Below, in pieces: positions 13,313 through 27,687 of a stretch of 63,438 nt of DNA. The DNA comes from Candidatus Magasanikbacteria bacterium CG11_big_fil_rev_8_21_14_0_20_39_34 (lineage in GTDB: Bacteria; Patescibacteriota; Patescibacteriia; Magasanikbacterales; UBA922), in assembly GCA_002787355.1 (NCBI GenBank), contig PCWN01000008.1, positions 1-63,438 of the forward strand, read 5' to 3'. The position numbers and the translations under genes are program-made. The notes beneath the pieces are model-generated. The model worked only from the letters and a program-made list of their open reading frames with translations. It did no database searches and was not told the DNA's origin. The number at the start of each line of letters is the position of its first letter. The stretch's first letter is position 1.

Positions 13313-13386
13313 GGGCGAGTCGTATAATGGTAGTACATTGGTCTCCAAAACCAATTGCGTGGGTTCGATTCCTACCTCGCCTGCCA
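13313..13386 (+). tRNA. tRNA-Trp (anticodon CCA)
   Basis: The cloverleaf folds fully. Acceptor GGGCGAG pairs with CTCGCCT (G1-U72 wobble). Anticodon stem TTGGT/ACCAA has loop CTCCAAA and anticodon CCA. T stem GTGGG/CCTAC has loop TTCGATT. Discriminator G and the 3' CCA are encoded. The last 12 bases (13375-13386) also encode, on the other strand, the C-terminal WQAR of the adjacent serine recombinase, so this is the apparent integration site of the element to the right. Confidence 0.93.
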
Positions 13387-14976
13387 ACGTGTAATCACAG
13401 AGTCTAAAAGCTCTGTTTTTGCTTTATTTAAGCCATTTTTGTTTGGTTCTAACGCAAGATATTCGGCTTCCAGGGGTTTATACCCTTTTTTAATTGGATC
13501 AAAGTAACTATGTGGAGAATAAGCCAATTTTTGATCCTCTAGCAAAAAGTTCGAACCTAAACCACTCAATACTGCTTTTTTCTCTTCCAGAGTTCCATTT
13601 TCGAAATTCCCTTTTGCAAATCTTGCAAACTGAAATGCTTTCTCAGTAAGCTCCAACCAATCCTCGGCTCGCTGTTCTGTCTCTTGTACCTTTTCTTGTA
13701 AATCTTTTATCTTTGCTTTAAGTTCGGTACTTTCTTTGATAAACATCTCGTCGTCTATCAATTCCCGATACCGCATCTTTGTCAGATTGTCGAGCTCCTT
13801 TTGAGTCTTTTCGAGTGAGCTGTGTTGCATTTCATAGATCTTCGTTCGGTCTACAATCTCTTGATCATTCTCTTGATTAAGTGCCTCCATCGCCCAATCA
13901 AAAAACTCTGGAAGGATCGTTAGTTTATCAATTTCATCCAAAATCATACCTTCTAAGGATGGCTCATCGATGGACCGACGCTGGGTACACTCGACGTCTC
14001 TTTTCCTTCTGGTGCAATGGTAGTACGTGTAGTACCTTAGTTCCTGACTTGCTTTAATAAACTTTTTTTTCTTTTCTGCAGTAATGCGACAACCACATTC
14101 CCCACAGTTAATCATACCTGTAAAAGGAAAAACATAACTCTTTGGCCTCGGTTTTCCTTTCCTACCTAATATAACCTGTACCTGATCAAACTCTTCGAGT
14201 GTTATCATTTTCTTATGTTTGCCGACGTATTCCTTCCCGTCGTATTCAAATACCCCTGTGTAAAAGAGATTTGTAAACACACGATAAAGTCCACTCATAG
14301 AAAGTGGCTTTCCACCCAATCGTTTTCGCTTTTTTGTTCGGAAGCCCCACTCGTCATTTAGCTTGGTGAGTATTTGAGGAACAGTATAATTTCCCGTAAG
14401 CATGTAATCCCACGCCTTTCGGATGAGATCGAAGCGCTCAGGGTCTGGTATGAGCGTATGGTTTTCAAGTTCATTCAGATATCCTGTCGGCGCAAGACCA
14501 GGTTTCCACCCATTCTTTACCTTAAACAAGTTTCCTCGTTTTACATTCTTGCTTAGATCAAGGATAAACTGGTTTGCCATCCCACTTTCTACATTGAACA
14601 AAAGTACATTATCTTCTGGTCGATATTCACGATCTATCGTTTGAATTGATTTCAGAACCTTCTGCTGGAGCAACCACTGGATTTGTGCGCTATCAATCGG
14701 ATTTCGTGATAGTCGGTTGATCTGCCAACAAAGAATGCCGTCAGCCTCACCAGCCTCGAGCCGTTCCATCATGCTAGTAAATACTGGTCGATTACTAGGT
14801 TTCTTGGCAGACTTGGCTTCTGTTAACACCTCCTTGATTGTAATACCGATGTTTTGTGCAAGCTCTTTGAGTCTATCAACTTGATCATCTATTGATTGCA
14901 CTTGTCGATCCTCACTTTCAGACGATTTTCTCGCATAGAGAAAGTATGTGTAATTTTTGTTGTCATGGTAATTCAT
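13372..14976 (-). CDS. Large serine recombinase (integrase) of the accessory element
   Basis: About 534 aa from ATG 14976; an upstream in-frame ATG at 15027 would read through an inverted-repeat region. The N-terminal resolvase domain has the catalytic Ser in YARKSSESEDRQ, and the Arg motif near RLSRNPID is present. A recombinase domain, a zinc ribbon (CGECGCRI, with later C and HC), a coiled-coil segment and a C-terminal tail follow. Large serine recombinases integrate and excise phages and ICE-like elements. The stop codon and last four codons lie within the tRNA-Trp gene, so the attachment core probably encodes the end of the protein. Confidence 0.92.
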   Translation of the reverse strand: MNYHDNKNYTYFLYARKSSESEDRQVQSIDDQVDRLKELAQNIGITIKEVLTEAKSAKKPSNRPVFTSMMERLEAGEADGILCWQINRLSRNPIDSAQIQWLLQQKVLKSIQTIDREYRPEDNVLLFNVESGMANQFILDLSKNVKRGNLFKVKNGWKPGLAPTGYLNELENHTLIPDPERFDLIRKAWDYMLTGNYTVPQILTKLNDEWGFRTKKRKRLGGKPLSMSGLYRVFTNLFYTGVFEYDGKEYVGKHKKMITLEEFDQVQVILGRKGKPRPKSYVFPFTGMINCGECGCRITAEKKKKFIKASQELRYYTYYHCTRRKRDVECTQRRSIDEPSLEGMILDEIDKLTILPEFFDWAMEALNQENDQEIVDRTKIYEMQHSSLEKTQKELDNLTKMRYRELIDDEMFIKESTELKAKIKDLQEKVQETEQRAEDWLELTEKAFQFARFAKGNFENGTLEEKKAVLSGLGSNFLLEDQKLAYSPHSYFDPIKKGYKPLEAEYLALEPNKNGLNKAKTELLDSVITRWQAR

Positions 14977-14990
14977 ATTTTTTGATACAA

Positions 14991-15104
14991 AAAGGGACAG
15001 CCCCCGCTTACCCAACTCGTATGCCAAGAAGACATATTTGCTGGAAGGGCTGCCCTTCTTTGATCAAATAAAAATCTTCTTGGCTTTTTATGAATTGGGT
15101 AAGC
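14991..15104. repeat. Nested inverted repeats ahead of the recombinase gene
   Basis: GCTTACCCAA (15006-15015) pairs perfectly with TTGGGTAAGC (15095-15104). Inside it GCCAAGAAGA (15023-15032) pairs with TCTTCTTGGC (15075-15084). The loop holds the 15-bp palindrome GAAGGGC-T-GCCCTTC (15044-15058). An outer AGGGACAGCCC (about 14993-15003) is almost complementary to part of that palindrome, allowing an alternative pairing. It could be an attP-type site, an operator for the recombinase gene or a structured leader. Which one cannot be decided by eye. Confidence 0.75.
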
Positions 15105-15116
15105 AACTAAAGTATA

Positions 15117-15740
15117 TCACGAGTGTAGCTTCTTTTCCATATCCATAGTCATCGCATCAAAGTCTATTTCAAGACATCTTTTTCTCAGCTCTATGAGCTT
15201 TTTGTACTTCTTGGTAGGCCGACCGTCATAGTATGGAGTAACAACTACTTCTTCAAGCTCTTCGATTTTTCTCTCCATTCGAAAAGCCTGTCCGAGACCA
15301 AACAGGAAGTGCCGTCGGTTCTCATTTTTACTCGCATATGTCAGTTCATAACAATGCCGGCACGCAAATCGATCCCCACCTTTGTAGAGAACCCCAACAC
15401 GCCGACCGCAGTATTTTCCATTTTTATACCACGGACAAATAAACCAGTACCGAGATCCTCCGTAATAACATTTCGTTGTCACAAGTAGTATCTTGTAATC
15501 GAAATGCTCCTTACTTCCATTGTCAATATAGGTTTGTGTGTAATAGATCCTCAGAAACTTTTTTCCTCCAGAGAGAATACTTTGTACACCAACGGTACTC
15601 TCTCTTCCATCAAATTTGTTTCTCCAGACGATCGTTCCAATTCGAGACGTTTCGAGGTACTTCCATTTTTTGAGTGAACAGACGTCAAGTTTTTTGAGGT
15701 AGTCGGCCTCTTTTTTTTTATTCCAGTTATATCGCCACAT
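15117..15740 (-). CDS. Zinc-finger protein of the integrated element, function unknown
   Basis: A 207-aa basic protein. The middle carries a clear treble-clef or zinc-ribbon-like cluster: FICPWYKNGKYCGRR, then RFACRHCYELTY, giving C-x8-C and C-x2-C about 20 residues apart. The rest is rich in Lys, Tyr and Trp. It is transcribed toward the recombinase gene and separated from it by the inverted-repeat region. Similar Cys-rich proteins are often found near recombinases of mobile elements (general impression, not checked). Nucleic-acid binding is plausible, but no enzymatic motif was seen. Confidence 0.65.
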   Translation of the reverse strand: MWRYNWNKKKEADYLKKLDVCSLKKWKYLETSRIGTIVWRNKFDGRESTVGVQSILSGGKKFLRIYYTQTYIDNGSKEHFDYKILLVTTKCYYGGSRYWFICPWYKNGKYCGRRVGVLYKGGDRFACRHCYELTYASKNENRRHFLFGLGQAFRMERKIEELEEVVVTPYYDGRPTKKYKKLIELRKRCLEIDFDAMTMDMEKKLHS

Positions 15741-17012: not shown

Positions 17013-17294
17013 CTAGCGATGGGAATATAGTTGGTTTTTGATATTCTTGAGCGCATTGAAGTACCCAAGAGCATCAACTTGTAATTCCCCACGCCAATAC
17101 TGTTGAGCAGACTCAACGATCTCGTCACTGTTCTCAAAGAAAAACAGGGCTTTATCTCCTTTTGTCCTGTCTATATGCAGAAGCTGATACCCCAGACTCA
17201 CCAAACCAGCGCACATACCGATGTCGTAGCTTGAAAATGGATTTGGGTAATCATCAAGAATGGGAACGTATGATTGTTCTTTTGTCATATTCAC
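17013..17294 (-). CDS. DUF5659-like protein
   Basis: A 93-aa protein; starts at 17294 and 17288 are both possible. It follows the layout 'fss.DigmcA.LvslGyqLl.id....kalFfFe.sdeive.aqqYw.GeL.Vda..YFnalKnlKnqLys', which matches my recollection of DUF5659, a short family of unknown function found in CPR bacteria and mobile elements. It is directly followed by the 50-aa gene and probably forms a pair with it. Regulation or DNA interaction is only a guess. Confidence 0.6.
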   Translation of the reverse strand: MNMTKEQSYVPILDDYPNPFSSYDIGMCAGLVSLGYQLLHIDRTKGDKALFFFENSDEIVESAQQYWRGELQVDALGYFNALKNIKNQLYSHR

Positions 17295-17446: not shown

Positions 17447-19165
17447 CTATGTTGAAAACCCTATCCAAGTGATATCAAATTGTTCCGTGTTTAAGTAATA
17501 GCCCCCCCTACCGTTCTTGATCAAATCAATATCTGTACCAAGTATGTTCTTAACATGGGTATTTATACCTATATTACCCTTTTTATTACTTTGTATTGCG
17601 GCATAGATTGATTTACTCAAATCATTATCCACAGTGCCTTTGTATCCAACTTGTCTAGCTAATCTTACTGCTGTTATTGAAGTAGCATCTTTCAACAGAT
17701 TTATAATATCTAATCGTCTATTTTTTGCTTGGTACAACTTAGATGGATCATTCTTTAAGTAAATGCCTTTTTGTTTATCTACCACGAGCTCTGTCTTTGC
17801 TTGCTCAGGTGAAGATTTCTTTACTTCGTTGAGATTCAAATCTATGGGTTTCTCCTGAGCACTATTTTTAAATTCGTGAGTGTGGGCATGCTCATGCTTG
17901 ACCACCTCCTGTTTTGGTTTGGTAAATTGGTTAAACCTTTCTCTATCCGCATCAGCATCTTTTTCAAATTGATGTAACCTTTCTTTTCTCAACTTATCAC
18001 ACCTACGTGTTATATCTCTAGTCTTGTCCAAAAAAATGACAAGCTGAGGATCTAGCGAAAATTCTTTTCGCCCAAACTTCATCCACAGCTTTTCTAAAAG
18101 ACCATATGCTGTTAGCAGACTATTTTTAACACCAAATTCTCCCCACCACATATCCATATCGTCCAAAGATCCTAAAATGGTGTCTGGCATCCACTCGGGG
18201 AGATTTTCTTTGATTTCTTGAAGAAATTGACGTTCTAAAATTTCATCAAGATACATTTTTAACTGTATGTATTGAGTGTTTAAATCATAGTCACAGATTA
18301 AAATGTAGTTGCCACAGACCGTACTTAATAATTCCACCAGCTGAGATAGTACAATTCTACAAAAGTAAATTGCTTGTTCGTCAGTCAACTTATCGATATC
18401 CACCATCTCACTTTCTCTATTAACACAAATCGCAATTTTTGATAAAAGATTATCTTCCAAACTAAAAACAATCCCATCAGATCCTACCCATTTTTGTTCT
18501 TTTTTTTCGGTGCTCGGAACCTTAGCAAAAATACTATCACCCACAATCTTTACATCATCATATTTTAAATACTTTTCGTATTTTGTCATCACCTCTGATG
18601 CTTTTTCTTCATCCCCAACAAAGACTAAAGGATGTAATACTTTTTCAAGTATTTTCAAAAACATTGAAATCTCTTCTGGTTTTTTAGATGTTGAATAGTA
18701 TGAAAGTACATAAAATACCACCACCCACTTTGTCGTATGCGTAAACATGCTTTCGGGTACGCCTAGTCTCGTAAATATTTGAATAATTTTATTCAACGAA
18801 AATCGACTTCCAATTTCCTTTGCTATTAGTTCTAAAGCATCTAAATTAACAATTCCATCAACACCTAGAATTCGTTTTTTAAGTAACAAAATTCTGTCCG
18901 CCTCTATATAAAACTCAATAAGTCTATTTCCTATTTCACGATGTGTTTGCTTTTTCATTTCCTCCCAGTCGTAAACCACAACCTCAAGATCTATCAAGAT
19001 TTGAATCAAATCATCGTTTCGTTCGTCAGTTGTAACAGTATAAGCATGCCCCGCCTGTACATCACCGACTATTCGCAACGCTTTTTCAAATAATTCTTTA
19101 TGCTGAATTAATTGATCAGTTGTTTTGATGTGACTATATAAGTTACTTCTCCTAGAAATAGCCAT
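17447..19165 (-). CDS. Unrecognised 572-aa protein, divergent from the methyltransferase cassette
   Basis: I do not recognise this protein. The first 400 residues look like a helical repeat fold without obvious catalytic motifs. A charged low-complexity linker at about 395-470 contains HEHAHTHE. The last 100 residues (KNRRLDIINLLKDATSITAVRLARQVGYKG, in part) resemble a winged-helix DNA-binding domain. It is transcribed away from the HTH/methyltransferase/helicase genes, with a 67-bp shared upstream region, and has its own terminator. Position suggests a regulator or sensor of that cassette (inference). Confidence 0.7.
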   Translation of the reverse strand: MAISRRSNLYSHIKTTDQLIQHKELFEKALRIVGDVQAGHAYTVTTDERNDDLIQILIDLEVVVYDWEEMKKQTHREIGNRLIEFYIEADRILLLKKRILGVDGIVNLDALELIAKEIGSRFSLNKIIQIFTRLGVPESMFTHTTKWVVVFYVLSYYSTSKKPEEISMFLKILEKVLHPLVFVGDEEKASEVMTKYEKYLKYDDVKIVGDSIFAKVPSTEKKEQKWVGSDGIVFSLEDNLLSKIAICVNRESEMVDIDKLTDEQAIYFCRIVLSQLVELLSTVCGNYILICDYDLNTQYIQLKMYLDEILERQFLQEIKENLPEWMPDTILGSLDDMDMWWGEFGVKNSLLTAYGLLEKLWMKFGRKEFSLDPQLVIFLDKTRDITRRCDKLRKERLHQFEKDADADRERFNQFTKPKQEVVKHEHAHTHEFKNSAQEKPIDLNLNEVKKSSPEQAKTELVVDKQKGIYLKNDPSKLYQAKNRRLDIINLLKDATSITAVRLARQVGYKGTVDNDLSKSIYAAIQSNKKGNIGINTHVKNILGTDIDLIKNGRGGYYLNTEQFDITWIGFST

Positions 19166-19232: not shown

Positions 19233-19418
19233 ATGGACACGCAAAAAATGCCTCAATTGCTCACACTAAAGGAGGCATGTGAGATATTGAATTGTCATCC
19301 CAACACACTACGGAAGTGGGATAACGAAGGAAAACTCAAAGCCATACGGTTTGGCTCCCGAGGAGATCGAAGATACAAAAAAGAGAACATCTTAATGTTC
19401 ATAGAAAAACAAACATAA
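19233..19418 (+). CDS. Small HTH protein (excisionase/MerR-like)
   Basis: A 61-aa protein with a single helix-turn-helix of the HTH_17/excisionase type: LLTLKEACEILNCHPNTLRKW, the wing GKLKAIRFGSRGDRRY and a final helix. Such proteins serve as recombination directionality factors or as transcriptional regulators of restriction-type operons. It sits 7 nt before the DNA methyltransferase gene, so it is probably co-transcribed and could act as controller (C-protein-like) or excisionase. Both readings are open. Confidence 0.85.
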   Translation: MDTQKMPQLLTLKEACEILNCHPNTLRKWDNEGKLKAIRFGSRGDRRYKKENILMFIEKQT

Positions 19419-19425
19419 TTTATCT

Positions 19426-22080
19426 ATGAATATATACGAAATTCCTGATAAAATCGATAACATACTATTTCCTCTTAATAAGGAATTATTTTTGTACGAT
19501 TTTTTAGGTATCTACAACTTACCCAAAAGTACAATTACACTCACACAAAAAAATCCATATAAACTGTCCGGGAAAGATAATGAAATTATCATAAAAAACA
19601 GGATTCAATTTTATGTTGTAAAAGAAGTAGAGGATTTGCACGAGACAATACACAATTTTCAAACCAACCCATCTAAGTATAAACCCCGATTTATAATCGT
19701 TACTGATTTCGAAACTTTACTAGCTGTTGATACCAAAACTAACGAAACGCTAGATATACCAATAACGAAACTATCTCGACACTATACTTTTTTTCTACCT
19801 TTAGCAAAAATTGAAAAAACACAAATTGACAATGAAAATCCGGCTGATGTTCGGGCTTCGATCAAACTTGCAAAGCTATACGATCAGATAATAAAAGATA
19901 ATAATAATAACAAATCAAAATTACAGGATCTTGATGTTTTCCTTACTCGTCTCTTGTTTTGTTACTTTGCAGAAGATACCAAAATTTTTCATGCAGATGA
20001 AGAAAGTATTTTTAGCAACTCATTGGGGTCACATACAAAAAATGATGGTTCTGACCTTTCCATATATATAAAAGAACTATACAGAGTGTTAAACACTCCC
20101 ATCAATGAGCGACAAAATATACCATCTCATTTTGCAAAATTTCCGTACGTAAACGGTGGTCTTTTTGAAAAAGAAATTACTCTCCCAGTGTTTACAACTC
20201 AATCAAGAAAAATGATTTTGGAAACAGCAAAGCTTGATTGGAGTTGTATTAACCCAGATATTTTTGGTTCAATGATTCAGGCTGTTGTTAATCCGGATGA
20301 ACGAGAAAATTTAGGGATGCACTACACCTCTGTTTCTAATATCATGAAAGTTTTAAAGCCTCTCTTTTTAGATGAACTTTACGAAGAATTTGATAAAGCC
20401 AACTCTGTCTCAAAGTTAGAAAAACTTCGAAAAAGAATAATTGATATCCGCATTTTTGATCCTGCATGTGGGTCTGGAAATTTCTTAATTACGGCATATA
20501 AGAGACTTTCTGAGCTCGAAAGTGAGATAATTAAGAAAGCCAAAGATCTCGGTAAAGATGTTCTCCCAATTTCAGGGATGTCTTTAAACAATTTCTATGG
20601 AATCGAGATTGACCATTTTGCTAGTGAAGTTGCAAAATTATCGCTATGGATTACTCAGTATCAAGTTAATGAATTGTTTCAGGATAATTTTGGAATCATG
20701 AAACCTATACTACCTCTTACACAAAGTGGAAACATTTTTTATGGGAATTCAGCAGTCATTGACTGGACCGAAGTCTGCCCTCGAAAATATGGAGAAGTGG
20801 ACTTAGAAATATATATAGTAGGCAATCCACCATTTGGTGGTTCTCGCAAACAGACTAAGGAACAGAAAAATGATATGGATAAAGTTTTTTCTGGTATTAT
20901 CCAAAAGTTCAAATCTCTCGATTACGTTGCAATCTGGTATTATAAACTAGCTAAATATATTATCGGTTCAAATATCTCTGGAGCACTTGTCTCAACTAAT
21001 TCGATTTCTCAGGGTTTGCAGGTTTCAATTTTTTGGCCTTATATCTTGAATATGGGAATTGAAATTTCTTTCGCATATACGTCATTTAAGTGGAAAAATT
21101 TGGCAAAGGGGAATGCTGGAGTTACAGTTGTAATTATTGGGCTCTCATCAAATCCTCAGAAGAAAATTTTATATTCAGAAAATACATATGAACTTGTAGA
21201 TAACATTAATCCTTATTTAGTAGGTAGCCCAAATCTAATTATTGAACCTCAAGCTAGGCCTATTTCATCATTTCATGAAATGAACTTTGGCAATATGCCC
21301 GCTGATGGTGGCCATTTACTTTTGACAGAAAATGAAAAAAAAACTGTCATAGAAGAAGATCCGCGCGTAGGTCAATTTATCAGAGAATACGTGTCTGCTA
21401 AGGAATATCTTGATGGAAAAAAACGTTATTGTATCTGGTTAGATGGTGTAAATAGAAATAAATATGATGATATTTCAATTTTGACTAGACGTATTGAACT
21501 GGTTAGAAAAGTTAGGTTAAACTCGTCTAGACCGCATCTTGCAGAATATCCATACTTATTTGCACAAATAACTCAGAACTTTAATTATGATCAAATAGTA
21601 ATCCCAGGTATTTCATCAGAGAACAGAACGTATGTTCCTATTTGGATTTCACCAAAAGATGCTATAGTCAGTAATCGCTGTTACATAATTCCAACAATAG
21701 ATTTGTCTCTAATAGGCATACTGCAATCCAAGATGCATATGATTTGGTTTCATGCAGTTGGAGGAAAACTTGAAACGCGTTTAAGCTATTCAAAAAATAT
21801 TGTTTATAATACTTTTCCGTTTCCAGAAATTTCAAAAGAACAGAAGGATCTAATCATTGATCATGTGTATAATATTTTAGATACACGTGAAAAGTATCCA
21901 GAAAAAACTCTAGCTAAAATGTATAACACAGAATCAATGCCAAAAGATTTACTTGAAGCACATGAGATGCTAGATGAAGTAATTGAGAAAATATACAGAA
22001 AGAAACCTTTTGAAAACGATGAGGAAAGGCTTGCTCATCTCTTCGATCTTTATGAAGAAATGATTACTAATGAAAAATAA
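19426..22080 (+). CDS. MmeI-like class I DNA N6-adenine methyltransferase
   Basis: An 884-aa protein. The SAM motif DPACGSGNFL is at about 345-354 and the catalytic motif IV NPPFGG at about 467-472, in the gamma-class order of motif I before IV. The N-terminal 60-170 region (FLYDFLGIYNLPKSTI, then ENPADVRAS) matches the opening of MmeI-type single-chain type IIG/IIL enzymes. The C-terminal 350 residues would hold the target-recognition and C-terminal domains. At the expected nuclease ExK position the sequence reads YVVK, so cleavage by this chain looks lost. It is followed by a helicase gene and a GIY-YIG gene with almost no spacing. Confidence 0.85.
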   Translation: MNIYEIPDKIDNILFPLNKELFLYDFLGIYNLPKSTITLTQKNPYKLSGKDNEIIIKNRIQFYVVKEVEDLHETIHNFQTNPSKYKPRFIIVTDFETLLAVDTKTNETLDIPITKLSRHYTFFLPLAKIEKTQIDNENPADVRASIKLAKLYDQIIKDNNNNKSKLQDLDVFLTRLLFCYFAEDTKIFHADEESIFSNSLGSHTKNDGSDLSIYIKELYRVLNTPINERQNIPSHFAKFPYVNGGLFEKEITLPVFTTQSRKMILETAKLDWSCINPDIFGSMIQAVVNPDERENLGMHYTSVSNIMKVLKPLFLDELYEEFDKANSVSKLEKLRKRIIDIRIFDPACGSGNFLITAYKRLSELESEIIKKAKDLGKDVLPISGMSLNNFYGIEIDHFASEVAKLSLWITQYQVNELFQDNFGIMKPILPLTQSGNIFYGNSAVIDWTEVCPRKYGEVDLEIYIVGNPPFGGSRKQTKEQKNDMDKVFSGIIQKFKSLDYVAIWYYKLAKYIIGSNISGALVSTNSISQGLQVSIFWPYILNMGIEISFAYTSFKWKNLAKGNAGVTVVIIGLSSNPQKKILYSENTYELVDNINPYLVGSPNLIIEPQARPISSFHEMNFGNMPADGGHLLLTENEKKTVIEEDPRVGQFIREYVSAKEYLDGKKRYCIWLDGVNRNKYDDISILTRRIELVRKVRLNSSRPHLAEYPYLFAQITQNFNYDQIVIPGISSENRTYVPIWISPKDAIVSNRCYIIPTIDLSLIGILQSKMHMIWFHAVGGKLETRLSYSKNIVYNTFPFPEISKEQKDLIIDHVYNILDTREKYPEKTLAKMYNTESMPKDLLEAHEMLDEVIEKIYRKKPFENDEERLAHLFDLYEEMITNEK

Positions 22081-24004
22081 TATGAAAACTATTCAAGTAG
22101 CAGAAGTTACATACAAGCAATCTGGAGAGAGTACAAAAACTAACGAGCTTGGAATGCGTGAAATGCAAGCTAAGGCTTACGAACAACGTACGGCTCAATA
22201 TCTTCTCATTAAAGCACCTCCTGCGTCCGGTAAATCACGTGCTCTTATGTTTATTGCACTTGATAAGTTGTACAACCAAGACATAAAGAAAGTGATTGTT
22301 GCAGTTCCAGAAAAATCTATTGGAGGATCTTTTAAAAACACAGATCTAACTAGCCATGGATTCTTTACTGATTGGAGTTTAAATGATAATTACAATTTGT
22401 GTACACCTGGCACCGATGGTAGCAAAAGTAAGATTACAACATTCAAAAACTTCATAAAGAATGATGAAAAAATCTTGATTTGTACTCATGCTACGCTCCG
22501 ATTTGCAGCCGACCAGCTGAGTGATGAGGATTTTAATAATACGCTTGTTGCAATTGATGAGTTTCATCATGTATCCGCAGATAAAGAAAATAGTAGACTT
22601 GGATCTGTCCTTCATGGAATTATGACTAATTCAAACGCACATATTGTAGCAATGACAGGATCATATTTTCGTGGAGATGGTGTTGCCGTATTACTTCCAG
22701 AAGATGAACAAAAATTCACTAAAGTTACATACAACTATTATCAACAGTTGAATGGATATAAATATTTGAAAACATTAGGTATTGGATACCACTTTTATAG
22801 TGGGAAATACTTATCAGCCATTGGTGAAGTACTAGATACTGATAAAAAAACTATATTGCATATCCCAAATGTAAATTCTGGTGAATCTACAAAAGACAAA
22901 CTCAACGAGGTCGATATGATTCTCGACATCATTGGAGAAGTAGATCATCAGGATCATGATACAGGTATTATTTATGTAAAACGTGATAGTGATGGAAAGT
23001 TACTCAAAGTAGCCAATTTGGTTGATGATGCCAGAGATCGAGACAAAATCGTCGATTACCTCCGTAATATGTCAGAAGAAGATGACATGGATATTATTAT
23101 TGCTCTCGGTATGGCCAAAGAAGGTTTTGATTGGCCATATTGTGAGCATGCCTTAACTGTAGGATACAGAAGCTCTCTTACTGAAATTATTCAAATTATC
23201 GGGCGTTGCACTCGAGACAGTGCAAACAAAACACATGCACAATTTACAAATCTTATTGCACAACCAGATGCAACAGATGAAACCGTAAAAATATCGGTTA
23301 ACAACATGCTAAAGGCTATAACTTGCTCGCTTTTGATGGAACAAGTTATGGCACCACATTTTGAATTTAAAGCGAAATCAACTAAACAGGGCAACCCAGG
23401 AGATATATTAATAAAGGGTTTTAAAGAACCTAGTACAGTTCGAGTAAAAGATATTATTGAATCAGATATCCATGATCTTAAAGCTTCAATTCTTCAAGAT
23501 GATCAAGTTGTAAGAGCTCTGCCAGGTAACATCGATGCAGAAGTGTTAAACAAGGTAATGATTCCTAAAATTATTAAGGAAAAATACCCAGATCTGACAG
23601 AGCAAGAAATTGAAGAAGTCCGTCAGCATGTTGTTGTAGACTCGGTTATAAAAAATGGAGAAATTAAAGAAGTAGGAAATCAAAAATTTGTCCGTATGGC
23701 GGGACAATTTGTAAATATTGAAGATCTTGCTATAGATCTTATTGATCGCATAAACCCATTCCAAGAGGCCTACGAAATACTCTCCAAAGAGGTAACAACT
23801 GCTACACTGAAAGTAATTCAAGATATAATTGATGCATCAAGAATTGAAATCACACCAGAGGAGGCTGCACTACAATGGCCAAAGATTCAAGCTTTTTACG
23901 AAAAAAATGGCCGTAAACCAGACATGAAATCAGAAGATCCACTTGAACGTCGAATGGCTGAGGTAGTAATCTACTTAACACAAATTAAGGCAAAACGAGG
24001 ATAA
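22070..24004 (+). CDS. DEAD/DEAH-type SF2 helicase
   Basis: A 644-aa protein (ATG 22070 overlaps the methyltransferase end by 11 bp; ATG 22082 is an alternative). The Walker A motif APPASGKS is near residue 49, the DEFHH Walker B box near 163, MTGSYF is motif III, and IIQIIGRCTRD near 374 is motif VI. These give a complete SF2 ATPase. No PD-(D/E)xK or HNH nuclease motif was seen in the C-terminal half. The last 50 residues (FYEKNGRKP, then ERRMAEV) form a short domain also found at the N-terminus of the next protein. It likely translocates on DNA for the cassette's restriction-like activity (inference). Confidence 0.88.
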   Translation: MKNNMKTIQVAEVTYKQSGESTKTNELGMREMQAKAYEQRTAQYLLIKAPPASGKSRALMFIALDKLYNQDIKKVIVAVPEKSIGGSFKNTDLTSHGFFTDWSLNDNYNLCTPGTDGSKSKITTFKNFIKNDEKILICTHATLRFAADQLSDEDFNNTLVAIDEFHHVSADKENSRLGSVLHGIMTNSNAHIVAMTGSYFRGDGVAVLLPEDEQKFTKVTYNYYQQLNGYKYLKTLGIGYHFYSGKYLSAIGEVLDTDKKTILHIPNVNSGESTKDKLNEVDMILDIIGEVDHQDHDTGIIYVKRDSDGKLLKVANLVDDARDRDKIVDYLRNMSEEDDMDIIIALGMAKEGFDWPYCEHALTVGYRSSLTEIIQIIGRCTRDSANKTHAQFTNLIAQPDATDETVKISVNNMLKAITCSLLMEQVMAPHFEFKAKSTKQGNPGDILIKGFKEPSTVRVKDIIESDIHDLKASILQDDQVVRALPGNIDAEVLNKVMIPKIIKEKYPDLTEQEIEEVRQHVVVDSVIKNGEIKEVGNQKFVRMAGQFVNIEDLAIDLIDRINPFQEAYEILSKEVTTATLKVIQDIIDASRIEITPEEAALQWPKIQAFYEKNGRKPDMKSEDPLERRMAEVVIYLTQIKAKRG

Positions 24005-24009
24005 TAGTT

Positions 24010-25155
24010 ATGAATGAAGAAGAACTGTACAAATTAATAGAACAAGACCAGCACAATTTGTTGGTTCCAGAAAAAAAGCCTCAGAAAGTTACGTCATCTG
24101 ATAGACTTGTTGATTCATTTTTAGAAATTAGCAATTTTTATATTGAACATGGTCGAGAGCCACGGAAAGGGACAGACATCACTGAAAGAAAGCTAGCTGC
24201 TCGTCTTGCTGGTTTTCGTGATAATCCTGAACATGTCGAGGTTTTAAAACAATATGATGAACACGGCTTACTAACTATTTACGCTTCTCAGCCTGAAACA
24301 ATTACGGATATTTTTGAAGATGATTCACTGGGAATTTTAGATATTGAAGAAAGCTCAATTCTTAATATAAAGAATGTCCCCGTCGATACTCGTACAACCC
24401 CAGAATTCATTGCCAAAAGAAAACCTTGTAAAGATTTCTTAAAATATGAACATTTGTTCAACGGCATACAAACAGGTTTACTGAATGGTACTTGGGTGTT
24501 TGGAGAAATAGACAAACATACTGAGCTACAACCTGGAACTTTTTTTATCCTTAGCGGTATTGTTGGTTATATCCAAGAAAGCGAGGAAATGGAAAAAGAT
24601 GAAAAGAAAAGAATTGACGCACGTCTACGTGTTATCTTTGAAAATGGTACTGAATCAAACATGTTCCTACAATCTCTTCGCAGGTCTATTCAGAAAGAAA
24701 ATGGTAAGATTATTAGACCAATCAAACCGATGGAGATTGAAAATGAAGATACTCAAACAGGACATATCTATGTATTAAAATCCAAAAGTAAAGTTCCTCG
24801 TATATCAAGTATAAAGGATTTGTATAAAATTGGCTTTACCACAAACCTTGTCGAAGATCGGATTAAAGGAGCTGAGCTAGACCCAACATATCTAATGGCA
24901 CCTATTAAGGTAGCTTTGGATTATACTTGTTTCAACATAAATCCTCATAGGTTCGAAAGGCTGATTCACAGGCTGTTTGGAGAAGCAAAATTAGACATAG
25001 AGATGTTTGATAGTAATGGAGTATCCTACACCCCGAAGGAGTGGTTTGTTGTTCCACTTGATGTCATTGAGCAGGCTATCGAGTTAATAATTAACGGAGA
25101 AATTATTAACTATAGTTATGATCATAGAAACAAGATCATGATTAAAAAGAGGTAA
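24010..25155 (+). CDS. GIY-YIG nuclease-domain protein (T5orf172/MUG113 type)
   Basis: A 381-aa protein. Residues about 27-75 hold a short domain (FYIEHGREP, then ERKLAARL) resembling the end of the preceding helicase. The C-terminal domain from about residue 251 is GIY-YIG-like: GHIYVLKS, then DLYKIGFTT, the Arg in EDRIKGAE and the Glu in RFERLIHRLF, closing with EWFVVPL. This is the layout of the T5orf172/MUG113 subgroup. It would supply the nuclease that the methyltransferase and helicase lack (inference). It starts 5 nt after the helicase stop. Confidence 0.85.
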   Translation: MNEEELYKLIEQDQHNLLVPEKKPQKVTSSDRLVDSFLEISNFYIEHGREPRKGTDITERKLAARLAGFRDNPEHVEVLKQYDEHGLLTIYASQPETITDIFEDDSLGILDIEESSILNIKNVPVDTRTTPEFIAKRKPCKDFLKYEHLFNGIQTGLLNGTWVFGEIDKHTELQPGTFFILSGIVGYIQESEEMEKDEKKRIDARLRVIFENGTESNMFLQSLRRSIQKENGKIIRPIKPMEIENEDTQTGHIYVLKSKSKVPRISSIKDLYKIGFTTNLVEDRIKGAELDPTYLMAPIKVALDYTCFNINPHRFERLIHRLFGEAKLDIEMFDSNGVSYTPKEWFVVPLDVIEQAIELIINGEIINYSYDHRNKIMIKKR

Positions 25156-25642: not shown

Positions 25643-27124
25643 ATGTATATTACAAAAACTGATTATCTCGAATATCTCTTCTGCAAGAAGAATTTTTGGC
25701 TCAAAAAACACAAACCTGAGCTTTTTGAGGATATAGAATTATCTGAATTTGAAAAGAAAATCGTTGAGGAAGGTAATATTGCCGATGAGACTGCACGCCA
25801 CCTCTTTCCTGAAGGAGTTTTGGTTACTACACACGAACAGGAGGCTCTTGAAGACACAAATCAATATATTGACACGCATGAGAAAGTCATATTCCAAGGG
25901 GCATTTTTTGTTGATTCTTTTTTGATTCGTGCAGATGTCATTGTTTGGGATGAAATCCTTGGTGGCTGGGAGCTTTATGAAGTAAAAGCTACAACCAAAG
26001 TAAAACGGGAGCAACTTCATAGCCACATAAAAGACATTGCCTTTCAGAAGGAAGTACTTACTCGTTCGGGGTTGTCAGTAGTAAAGTCTTGCATCATTCA
26101 CCTTAATGGAGAGTACAAAAGACGTAAGGATATTTCATGGAGGGATGTTTTTGTCATTGAGGATGTCACTGACGAAGTAAAGGAAGTGGTAGATGAAGTA
26201 TCCATGGAGATGGATGAAATGAAGAAGGCTATGAATATGCCTGAAGGAAGCGGTTGCGCTTGTATCTATCGTGGCAGATCAAATCAGTGTACTACTTTTG
26301 CCTACTCAAACCCCAAGGTACCTGAGTACAGCATTCATGACCTCCACAGAATCGGCTTGAGTAAGAAAAAACTTGAGGCTTGGGTAGATGAAGGTGTCTT
26401 TGCACTTGAGGATATTCCCAATACTTCTATTCTCAACGACAAACAGGCTCTACAGGTACAGACATACCTATCGGGCGAGCCTTTTATTGACAGAGACAAG
26501 ATTCGAAAAGAAATAGAATCACTTGAGTACCCACTGTACTTCTTTGATTACGAAGGGTATGGAACGGCCATACCTGAGTTTCAGGGATATGGGACCTTTG
26601 AGCAGGTACCCTTCCAGTATTCACTTCATATTATGCACGAAAACGGCGAAATTGAGCACAGAGAGCACCTGGTAAGGCAGAAACGCTCAGATATAGCAGG
26701 AAGCCTCGTAAAACAGCTTGCAGAGGATATTGGGCCGAAAGGAAGTATCATCTCATGGCATAAATCCTATGAGGTAGGGAGAAATAATACGTTAGCTCGG
26801 ATATACCCCAGTCACACTCACTTTTTTGAGGATATGAACGATCGTATGTTCGATCTTGAAAGCATATTCCTCAACCAACTGTATGTACATCCTGATTTCA
26901 AAGGAAAGACGAGTATCAAAAAGATTCTCCCAGTTTTGGTACCTGAACTTACCTACGACAAGCTTTCCGTGAAGGCTGGAGATCAAGCCATGGAGCGATG
27001 GGAGTATATGCTTTCAGAGGAATGTGAGGATGAAGAGGCTATCTACCATGATCTGTTAGAGTATTGTAAACAAGATACGTGGGCAATGGTAAAAATTTAC
27101 GAGGAATTATTGGCACTACTATGA
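25643..27124 (+). CDS. DUF2779-type protein: Cas4/RecB-like nuclease plus DEDD exonuclease-like domain
   Basis: A 493-aa protein. The N-terminal half has an early Cys (EYLFCKKNFWLKKHKPEL), the PD-(D/E)xK core (RADVIVWDE, then YEVKATT) and a later Cys cluster (CACIYRGRSNQC), together resembling the Fe-S nuclease layout of Cas4/AddB. The C-terminal half (FFDYEG, then FDLES, then YCKQDTWAMVKIYEELL) is an RNase H-like DEDD exonuclease fold. This two-domain order is that of DUF2779. The exact biological role is unknown, and nucleic-acid degradation or repair in a defence setting is likely. Its stop overlaps the next start as ATGA. Confidence 0.8.
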   Translation: MYITKTDYLEYLFCKKNFWLKKHKPELFEDIELSEFEKKIVEEGNIADETARHLFPEGVLVTTHEQEALEDTNQYIDTHEKVIFQGAFFVDSFLIRADVIVWDEILGGWELYEVKATTKVKREQLHSHIKDIAFQKEVLTRSGLSVVKSCIIHLNGEYKRRKDISWRDVFVIEDVTDEVKEVVDEVSMEMDEMKKAMNMPEGSGCACIYRGRSNQCTTFAYSNPKVPEYSIHDLHRIGLSKKKLEAWVDEGVFALEDIPNTSILNDKQALQVQTYLSGEPFIDRDKIRKEIESLEYPLYFFDYEGYGTAIPEFQGYGTFEQVPFQYSLHIMHENGEIEHREHLVRQKRSDIAGSLVKQLAEDIGPKGSIISWHKSYEVGRNNTLARIYPSHTHFFEDMNDRMFDLESIFLNQLYVHPDFKGKTSIKKILPVLVPELTYDKLSVKAGDQAMERWEYMLSEECEDEEAIYHDLLEYCKQDTWAMVKIYEELLALL

Positions 27125-27687
27125 ATAGCGATGAAAAGTATCCCGAAGGACAAATGCAAAGAAATGTTACGGATTATATAAATGATTCAATTGACAGATT
27201 AAAAGAATGGTGTAGTCTACTAGAATTGATTAAAACGAAACGTGAAGAGCTACCTAAACATAAAAAAGTTTTCAATTCACTTATTGATGTCTATAGTCGA
27301 GACATGATAAATGTCCTTTCAAACGTATTGGATCAAAATAAACAAACATCTTCACTTTTTACACTCTTGTCGTACATAGAAACTAACAAAGAAAGTACAA
27401 ACTATAGAAAAAAAATCGATAAAATTAAGCTAGAAGTAAATGATTATATAATCACAAGAGGCGCACACACTGGTCACTTTAATACAAAACACAATTCTTA
27501 TCCAAATGATCGACTTCCATTAAACACCCCTATTTCTGTCAATCAAGAATTCATGACAGGCATAGTTAATAGAATCGAGGATTTATTTTGGAAAATGAAA
27601 GAAGAAGCTAAAATAGACGGAGTGTTTGTTAGCACACATAATTGGACTATGAGAGATGCCTTTAGTGATTTTATTTCATCTCTTTAA
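27121..27687 (+). CDS. Possible HEPN/AbiU2-like protein
   Basis: A 188-aa, predicted all-helical protein starting MNSDEKYPEG. A central Asp/Arg/Lys-rich helix pair (VYSRDMINVLSNVLDQNKQ) is followed by the segment ITRGAHTGHFNTKH, which contains an R-x5-H as in the catalytic motif of HEPN ribonucleases. The overall layout recalls AbiU2-like HEPN proteins, though this is from memory only. It is translationally coupled by ATGA to the DUF2779 nuclease. A frameshifted copy of its N-terminus lies at 25168. If HEPN is right, it would be an RNase effector. Confidence 0.55.
   Translation: MNSDEKYPEGQMQRNVTDYINDSIDRLKEWCSLLELIKTKREELPKHKKVFNSLIDVYSRDMINVLSNVLDQNKQTSSLFTLLSYIETNKESTNYRKKIDKIKLEVNDYIITRGAHTGHFNTKHNSYPNDRLPLNTPISVNQEFMTGIVNRIEDLFWKMKEEAKIDGVFVSTHNWTMRDAFSDFISSL

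Follow-up and report, generated by a model that had tools for sequence, protein, structure and literature searches.

In Bacillus subtilis, the methyltransferase DnmA introduces N6-methyladenine (m6A) at GACGAG; the protein is an MmeI homologue that lacks the nuclease motif, showed no endonuclease activity when tested, and is encoded upstream of a putative helicase and a putative endonuclease (PMC7261158). A Type I-like system was suggested by Morgan et al. (2009), as cited in PMC7261158. Comparison of 368 neighbourhoods revealed conserved synteny, with the helicase gene at position +1 and a T5orf172/GIY-YIG gene at position +2, and defence genes were found to be enriched around dnmA (PMC9973331). 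Here, we analyzed a four-gene cassette located in a 63,438-nucleotide stretch of DNA (the window; contig PCWN01000008.1, positions 1 to 63,438) from Candidatus Magasanikbacteria bacterium CG11_big_fil_rev_8_21_14_0_20_39_34. Its methyltransferase, helicase and GIY-YIG protein genes almost certainly form a member of the dnmA-yeeB-yeeC family, an assignment based on protein families, gene order and published descriptions. In the B. subtilis control genome, the methyltransferase model PDLC03598 and T5orf172 both found matches. A first-pass annotation of the window had presented the cassette as a new, unrecognised system; since the trio is already in the literature (PMC7261158, PMC9973331), this proposal was dropped.

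All four genes are encoded on the forward strand. The first (19233-19418) encodes a helix-turn-helix (HTH) protein of 61 amino acids of the MerR/excisionase type (HTH_17, 50 bits), a probable operon regulator outside the conserved core. It is followed after 7 nt by the gene for a DnmA-type (MmeI-like) N6-adenine DNA methyltransferase of 884 amino acids (19426-22080), in which the five MmeI domains of Pfam (MmeI_N, hel, Mtase, TRD and C) were all detected above their cut-offs. The third gene (22070-24004) overlaps the second by 11 nt and encodes a YeeB-type superfamily 2 (SF2) DNA motor/helicase of 644 amino acids with ResIII, DEAD and Helicase_C matches; translation possibly starts at the second methionine (nt 22082), which leaves a 1-nt gap after the methyltransferase gene and is where the 79% identical relative in genome G020 begins. 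Separated by 5 nt, the fourth gene (24010-25155) encodes a YeeC-type protein of 381 amino acids with T5orf172 and MUG113 matches, a probable GIY-YIG nuclease and cutter. The open reading frame (ORF) coordinates and Pfam domains thus agree with the first-pass annotation, which had described four nearly contiguous rightward genes for these products.

An alignment-based scan of genome contigs confirmed at least 553 helicase relatives, the best 80 of which were used for the counts at genome loci. The GIY-YIG gene lies directly after the helicase gene in all 78 testable genome loci, showing a linkage far beyond chance. A methyltransferase gene precedes the helicase gene in 69 of 76 genome loci, and the complete trio is present in the same order in 67/80 genome and 12/13 plasmid loci. 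The neighbourhood search therefore confirmed the co-occurrence across genomes that the first-pass annotation had put forward as a check, and the division of methylase, helicase and nuclease over separate chains is that of a conserved cassette with three separate genes. The best 80 relatives stem from Bacteroidota, Planctomycetes, Lentisphaerae, Campylobacterota, Proteobacteria, Bacillota, Actinomycetota, Chlamydiae and Saccharibacteria, and include one Methanosarcinaceae archaeon. tblastn searches of plasmid records detected the helicase in 263 and the GIY-YIG protein in 229 of them. In a viral database, 43 contigs contained a helicase relative when the alignment was used as query, while a single helicase sequence as query gave 0 matches.

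Seven genome loci have no methyltransferase gene directly upstream of the helicase gene. One of them (L046) is ordered helicase-GIY-YIG-methyltransferase; the remaining ones, as well as one viral contig, carry a YhcG, RhuM/ORF6N, Fic, AIPR, AlbA-like or Mrr gene upstream of the helicase gene. Genes of these types also occur within Type I restriction loci. Accessory genes directly before the helicase gene in L024, L048, L055, L064, L065, L089 and L127 suggest a variable internal slot, as does L018, where the methyltransferase and helicase genes are separated by an ORF that has no Pfam match. The neighbourhoods of relatives also contain CBASS, McrBC, Abi, TIR and HsdM/S genes.

Compared with 91 relatives, the helicase shows a median identity of 65%, the methyltransferase one of 46% and the GIY-YIG protein one of 41%. 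Among 380 genomes of the phylum of the window, only three encode a full-length helicase relative (the window, G020 with 79% and G252 with about 55% identity), pointing to rare acquisition in this phylum. The window helicase is equally close (79%) to the protein from G020, a genome belonging to the family of the window, and to a sequence from Izemoplasmatales, which argues for transfer. In the Bacillus mediterraneensis cluster (L059) the helicase is 64% identical to that of the window. A Ligilactobacillus salivarius plasmid (L008:4319-6994) carries the methyltransferase gene in three pieces, the middle one (residues 160-256) inverted and on the opposite strand, possibly by phase variation or as an assembly artefact.

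The methyltransferase is similar to the sequence of the MmeI crystal structure 5hr4 (E=3.6e-176) and contains the motifs NPPF and FDPACGSG. Its target recognition domain (TRD; residues 602-802, 21229-21831, MmeI_TRD 222 bits) is the most variable part of the cassette, with a median identity of 35% to relatives. Residues 19-157 (19480-19896, MmeI_N 77.5 bits) form a degenerate nuclease-like N domain. In MmeI, the catalytic residues of this domain are D70, E80 and K82 (PMC4833311). A profile of 11 cassette methyltransferases could be aligned with MmeI over the whole length, and the catalytic positions were inspected in 98 proteins (that of the window, that of G020 and 96 further family members). 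The D70 column is deleted in 97/98 proteins, a glutamate is found at the E80 position in two, and none has a lysine at the K82 position; the window protein keeps none of the three residues. Loss of the built-in nuclease site, which the first-pass annotation had suspected for this one protein, is thus seen throughout the family, leaving the GIY-YIG protein as the only visible nuclease.

The helicase motifs APPASGKS (Walker A), DEFHH, MTGSYFRGD and QIIGRxTRD are kept throughout the helicase alignments, the sole exception being one 5'-truncated plasmid copy (alignments of motor and nuclease comprised 54-82 sequences). The AlphaFold2 (AF2) model (mean predicted local distance difference test (pLDDT) 78) has an SF2 core that matches RIG-I, MDA5, LGP2 and FANCM with Z about 22 across about 340 residues. 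FANCM, RadD and other DNA motors score level with the RNA/DNA duplex sensors within the noise of the method, and these model-based matches do not tell DNA motors from RNA motors. HsdR of EcoR124I and the Type ISP enzyme LlaBIII are within the Foldseek top 50. Inspection of Pfam matches, conserved motifs and the AF2 model revealed no nuclease domain in the 644 residues, in line with the earlier description of a complete SF2 helicase without a visible nuclease.

All 82 aligned sequences of the GIY-YIG protein keep G251, Y254, K273, G275, R284 and E316. The AF2 model (pLDDT 89) consists of an N-terminal helical module, a middle SH3/KOW-like barrel (residues 160-240, 24487-24729) and a C-terminal GIY-YIG region, the predicted catalytic domain (residues 249-379, 24754-25146), which Pfam matches and conserved residues also mark. 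Residues 158-240 gave weak Foldseek/VIA matches (Z 4-6) to domain I of EF-P, the Tudor domain of UvrD and CarD. The comparison of motor and nuclease with hhalign showed that a helical module of about 40 residues at the helicase C-terminus (residues 599-638, 23864-23983) is homologous to the N-terminus of the GIY-YIG protein (residues 33-71, 24106-24222), with 94.8% probability. In the controls, the probability did not exceed 0.9% for helicase windows off the tail or 6.7% for methyltransferase windows. We found no earlier report of this homology in the accessible literature. The shared module, the barrel of YeeC and the location of the cassette on a serine-recombinase element at tRNA-Trp (see below) are new here.

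The HTH gene does not belong to the core. When the window HTH protein was compared with upstream ORFs of 94 relatives' loci, one weak match was obtained. In G020 a Cro/C1-type HTH gene (L147:7897-8094) takes its place 3 nt before the methyltransferase gene, and elsewhere Cro/C1-type or unrelated genes occupy the position. A scan of 41 small upstream proteins detected HTH_3 (Cro/C1) in 10 and HTH_17 only in the window's own protein. The HTH protein was consequently rejected as a core component, although the first-pass annotation had counted it as a member of the cassette, and it is most plausibly an exchangeable regulator.

The cassette lies on a mobile element next to a tRNA-Trp gene (13313-13386, + strand), recognized by the tRNA call and by the flanks of relatives. 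The 3' end of a large serine recombinase gene (13372-15027, - strand) overlaps the tRNA gene; the protein has Resolvase, Recombinase and Zn_ribbon_recom domains and matches the phrog_95 integrase with 244 bits. In genome G026 (L167), a homologue of the left-flank gene and tRNA-Trp precede a recombinase with 76% identity and two more shared element genes, but no cassette. Sequence comparison identified these two genes in the window at 15117-15740 (- strand, 51% identity) and 17013-17294 (- strand, 75% identity). In G030 (L168) the left-flank gene and tRNA-Trp are present without a recombinase, an empty site. Taken together, the cassette-free element and the empty site show that the cassette is cargo of an element integrating at tRNA-Trp, as the first-pass annotation had supposed in placing it on a recombinase-borne element. 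In the search for the right end of the element, the 3' end of tRNA-Trp did not recur within the window, no convincing copy was found elsewhere in the genome, and the direct repeats encountered were of chance size only. In this bacterial family, the 3' ends of related large serine recombinase genes abut tRNA 3' ends (window 13313-15027, L151, L152, L153 and L167 were compared), namely at tRNA-Trp (window, G026), tRNA-Asn (G011) and tRNA-Asp (G036). Targeting of tRNA genes is, to our knowledge, uncommon among large serine recombinases.

We propose, with a probability of about 0.65, that the cassette encodes an ATP-dependent restriction system of Type I/ISP-like character split across three chains, with the HTH protein as an exchangeable regulator. 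Besides family identity, this reading draws on the conserved gene order, the intact residues of motor and nuclease, the family-wide loss of the MmeI nuclease site, the resemblance of the motor core to duplex translocases, the shared module, the variable TRD and the genes of Type I loci that can precede the helicase gene. A role in restriction as such is probable, given the defence-rich neighbourhoods, the mobility and the phenotype reported for Vibrio crassostreae, in which deletion of the dnmA and yeeB homologues led to higher sensitivity to some phages (Piel et al., via PMC9973331). The division of labour is more tentative: the methyltransferase might serve as recognition subunit, YeeB as duplex translocase, and YeeC as the cutter, docked via the duplicated module. 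In such a system, the methyltransferase would mark host DNA at a short asymmetric site, on one of the two strands. At an unmarked site in incoming DNA it would act as recognition subunit, and the YeeB motor would be loaded there and translocate along the duplex. The module shared by the YeeB C-terminus and the YeeC N-terminus would keep YeeC attached to the motor or a common partner, and YeeC would cut the DNA, perhaps at the meeting point of two motors, in the manner of Type ISP/III enzymes. Expression of the operon may be controlled by the leading HTH gene, which would be exchanged between clusters.

Several points weigh against this proposal. The B. subtilis cluster does not restrict transformation (PMC7261158) and gave no protection from three phages; in the view of the authors it is a relic (PMC9973331). 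The defence role claimed in the first-pass annotation remains probable: neighbourhoods, mobility and the second-hand Vibrio report speak for it, the B. subtilis phage and transformation data against it. Biochemistry of YeeB or YeeC was not found in the literature, and complex formation by the three proteins is putative. A loose D-x(7-12)-[DE]xK string is present in 58/98 methyltransferase N domains compared with 29% of shuffled sequences; these strings mostly correspond to a 'D..DTK' hairpin, seen in the window as D94..D102-T-K104. A nuclease site that has moved elsewhere in the N domain nevertheless appears unlikely, as nothing supports one. Foldseek searches with the whole YeeC model returned barrel matches and no GIY-YIG structure, an uninformative absence which means that the GIY-YIG domain rests on sequence.

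The B. subtilis results agree with a different explanation, the one favoured for that organism, in which the methyltransferase is an orphan enzyme regulating genes and the helicase and GIY-YIG protein no longer restrict; DnmA does alter gene expression (PMC7261158, PMC9973331). For the window cassette we consider this unlikely. All three genes are intact and every catalytic residue of motor and nuclease is kept, both here and across the alignments; the helicase is the most conserved protein of the three, a poor fit to decay; plasmids and mobile elements carry the cassette; and the Vibrio mutants are, in the report as relayed, phage-sensitive. Improbable, too, is defence by another route, such as a block of phage replication or cell killing with YeeC acting on RNA. 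In its favour, the motor core comes closest to the RNA/DNA duplex sensors, GIY-YIG proteins are diverse and the YeeC barrel resembles domain I of EF-P/eIF5A; however, DNA motors score equally, the barrel matches are weak, and the fixed partnership with a DNA methyltransferase points to DNA. That an ordinary Type IIG/IIL enzyme lies by chance beside a helicase and a GIY-YIG gene is very improbable. The PADLOC model PDLC03598 ('REase_MTase_IIG') matches the methyltransferase over its full length (963 bits) and the protein is an MmeI homologue, but the catalytic glutamate and lysine are missing almost throughout, DnmA had no endonuclease activity and the neighbours are conserved partners; a Type IIG enzyme with working nuclease was rejected on the same residues. 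A new four-gene defence system including the HTH protein, the view of the first-pass annotation, is hardly credible even though this gene lies 7 nt upstream in the same direction and MAD1 of MADS likewise precedes a methyltransferase, since the trio is published and the HTH type turns over between relatives.

Further genes were observed around the cassette. Upstream and divergent from it, a 572-amino-acid protein is encoded (17447-19165, - strand) with sub-threshold AbiJ/AbiEi-like Pfam matches only and no relative among 40 genomes of the family; it is possibly a separate cargo gene. Just downstream, a DUF2779/UU173-family protein with a weakly Cas4/RecB-like N-terminus is encoded (25643-27124, + strand). 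A protein with similar start and end is found in G252, several kb from the cassette (L148:17350-18843, - strand). The end of the DUF2779 gene is overlapped by a gene for a 202-amino-acid protein (27079-27687, + strand) with a sub-threshold HEPN_AbiU2 match. The host genome has a size of 1.18 Mb in 11 contigs and is 99% complete; ribosomal protein L16 is present and L30 gave no match. Related genomes across the phylum are similarly small, in keeping with a Patescibacteria/CPR bacterium.

The window cassette, borne on a mobile element of a tiny-genome bacterium, adds a member to a published family. Clusters of this kind have a very wide distribution, yet the published results conflict, with inactivity in B. 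subtilis and, according to the second-hand account, phage protection in Vibrio. Annotation tools detect the methyltransferase alone: the PADLOC check suggested in the first-pass annotation yielded the model match labelled Type IIG, a label contradicted by the lost nuclease site, and no system name for the trio came from the tools used; the helicases and GIY-YIG proteins of relatives received weak, unrelated labels. The duplicated module of motor and nuclease and the intact GIY-YIG residues provide testable predictions. As a speculation that we hold with less than even confidence, the family may represent a mechanistically new restriction type, with recognition/modification, translocation and cutting on three chains and a GIY-YIG cutter delivered by a RIG-I/FANCM-like duplex motor via a duplicated helical docking module; tiny-genome (candidate phyla radiation (CPR)-like) bacteria would acquire the system on tRNA-targeting serine-recombinase elements.

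The cassette was also compared with other known systems. MADS (MAD1-MAD8) also begins with a small HTH gene followed by a DNA methyltransferase gene, and the PADLOC mad1 model matches the window HTH protein with E=1e-9; MADS was rejected since NCBIfam MAD1 and MAD2 scored 15 and 15 bits against cut-offs of 80 and 720 and no other MAD genes were detected. DISARM was rejected as well, the similarity being restricted to a DrmMI-like methyltransferase with no DrmA or DrmB among the cassette and neighbouring proteins, and so was BREX (PglX models 25-42 bits against cut-offs of 400-900, no BrxC or PglZ match). Type III systems combine helicase and nuclease in one Res chain, whereas neither Pfam nor the conserved motifs show a nuclease domain in the window helicase. 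The cassette shares the separate chains for methyltransferase and motor with Type I systems (HsdR/M/S), and RhuM, Fic and YhcG accessory genes lie near the motor gene in its relatives; it differs in having no HsdS, a recognition domain inside the methyltransferase and a nuclease unfused from the motor. Type ISP enzymes (LlaBIII, LlaGI) comprise the same activities (nuclease, SF2 motor, gamma methyltransferase and a TRD for an asymmetric site), but in one chain with an Mrr-like nuclease instead of three chains with a GIY-YIG nuclease. MmeI (Type IIL) is likewise laid out in five domains and has an adenine methyltransferase and a TRD; in contrast, the window protein has lost D70, E80 and K82, and motor and GIY-YIG nuclease are separate genes. 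The dnmA-yeeB-yeeC cluster of B. subtilis, with homologues in V. crassostreae, agrees in all three protein families (an MmeI-homologous methyltransferase without nuclease motif, a helicase and a T5orf172/GIY-YIG protein), in gene order and in orientation, and its location in a low-GC mobile region with recombinase genes resembles the mobile carrier of the window cassette. Unlike the B. subtilis cluster, the window trio is preceded by a MerR-type HTH gene and is carried on a tRNA-Trp serine-recombinase element in a tiny-genome bacterium.

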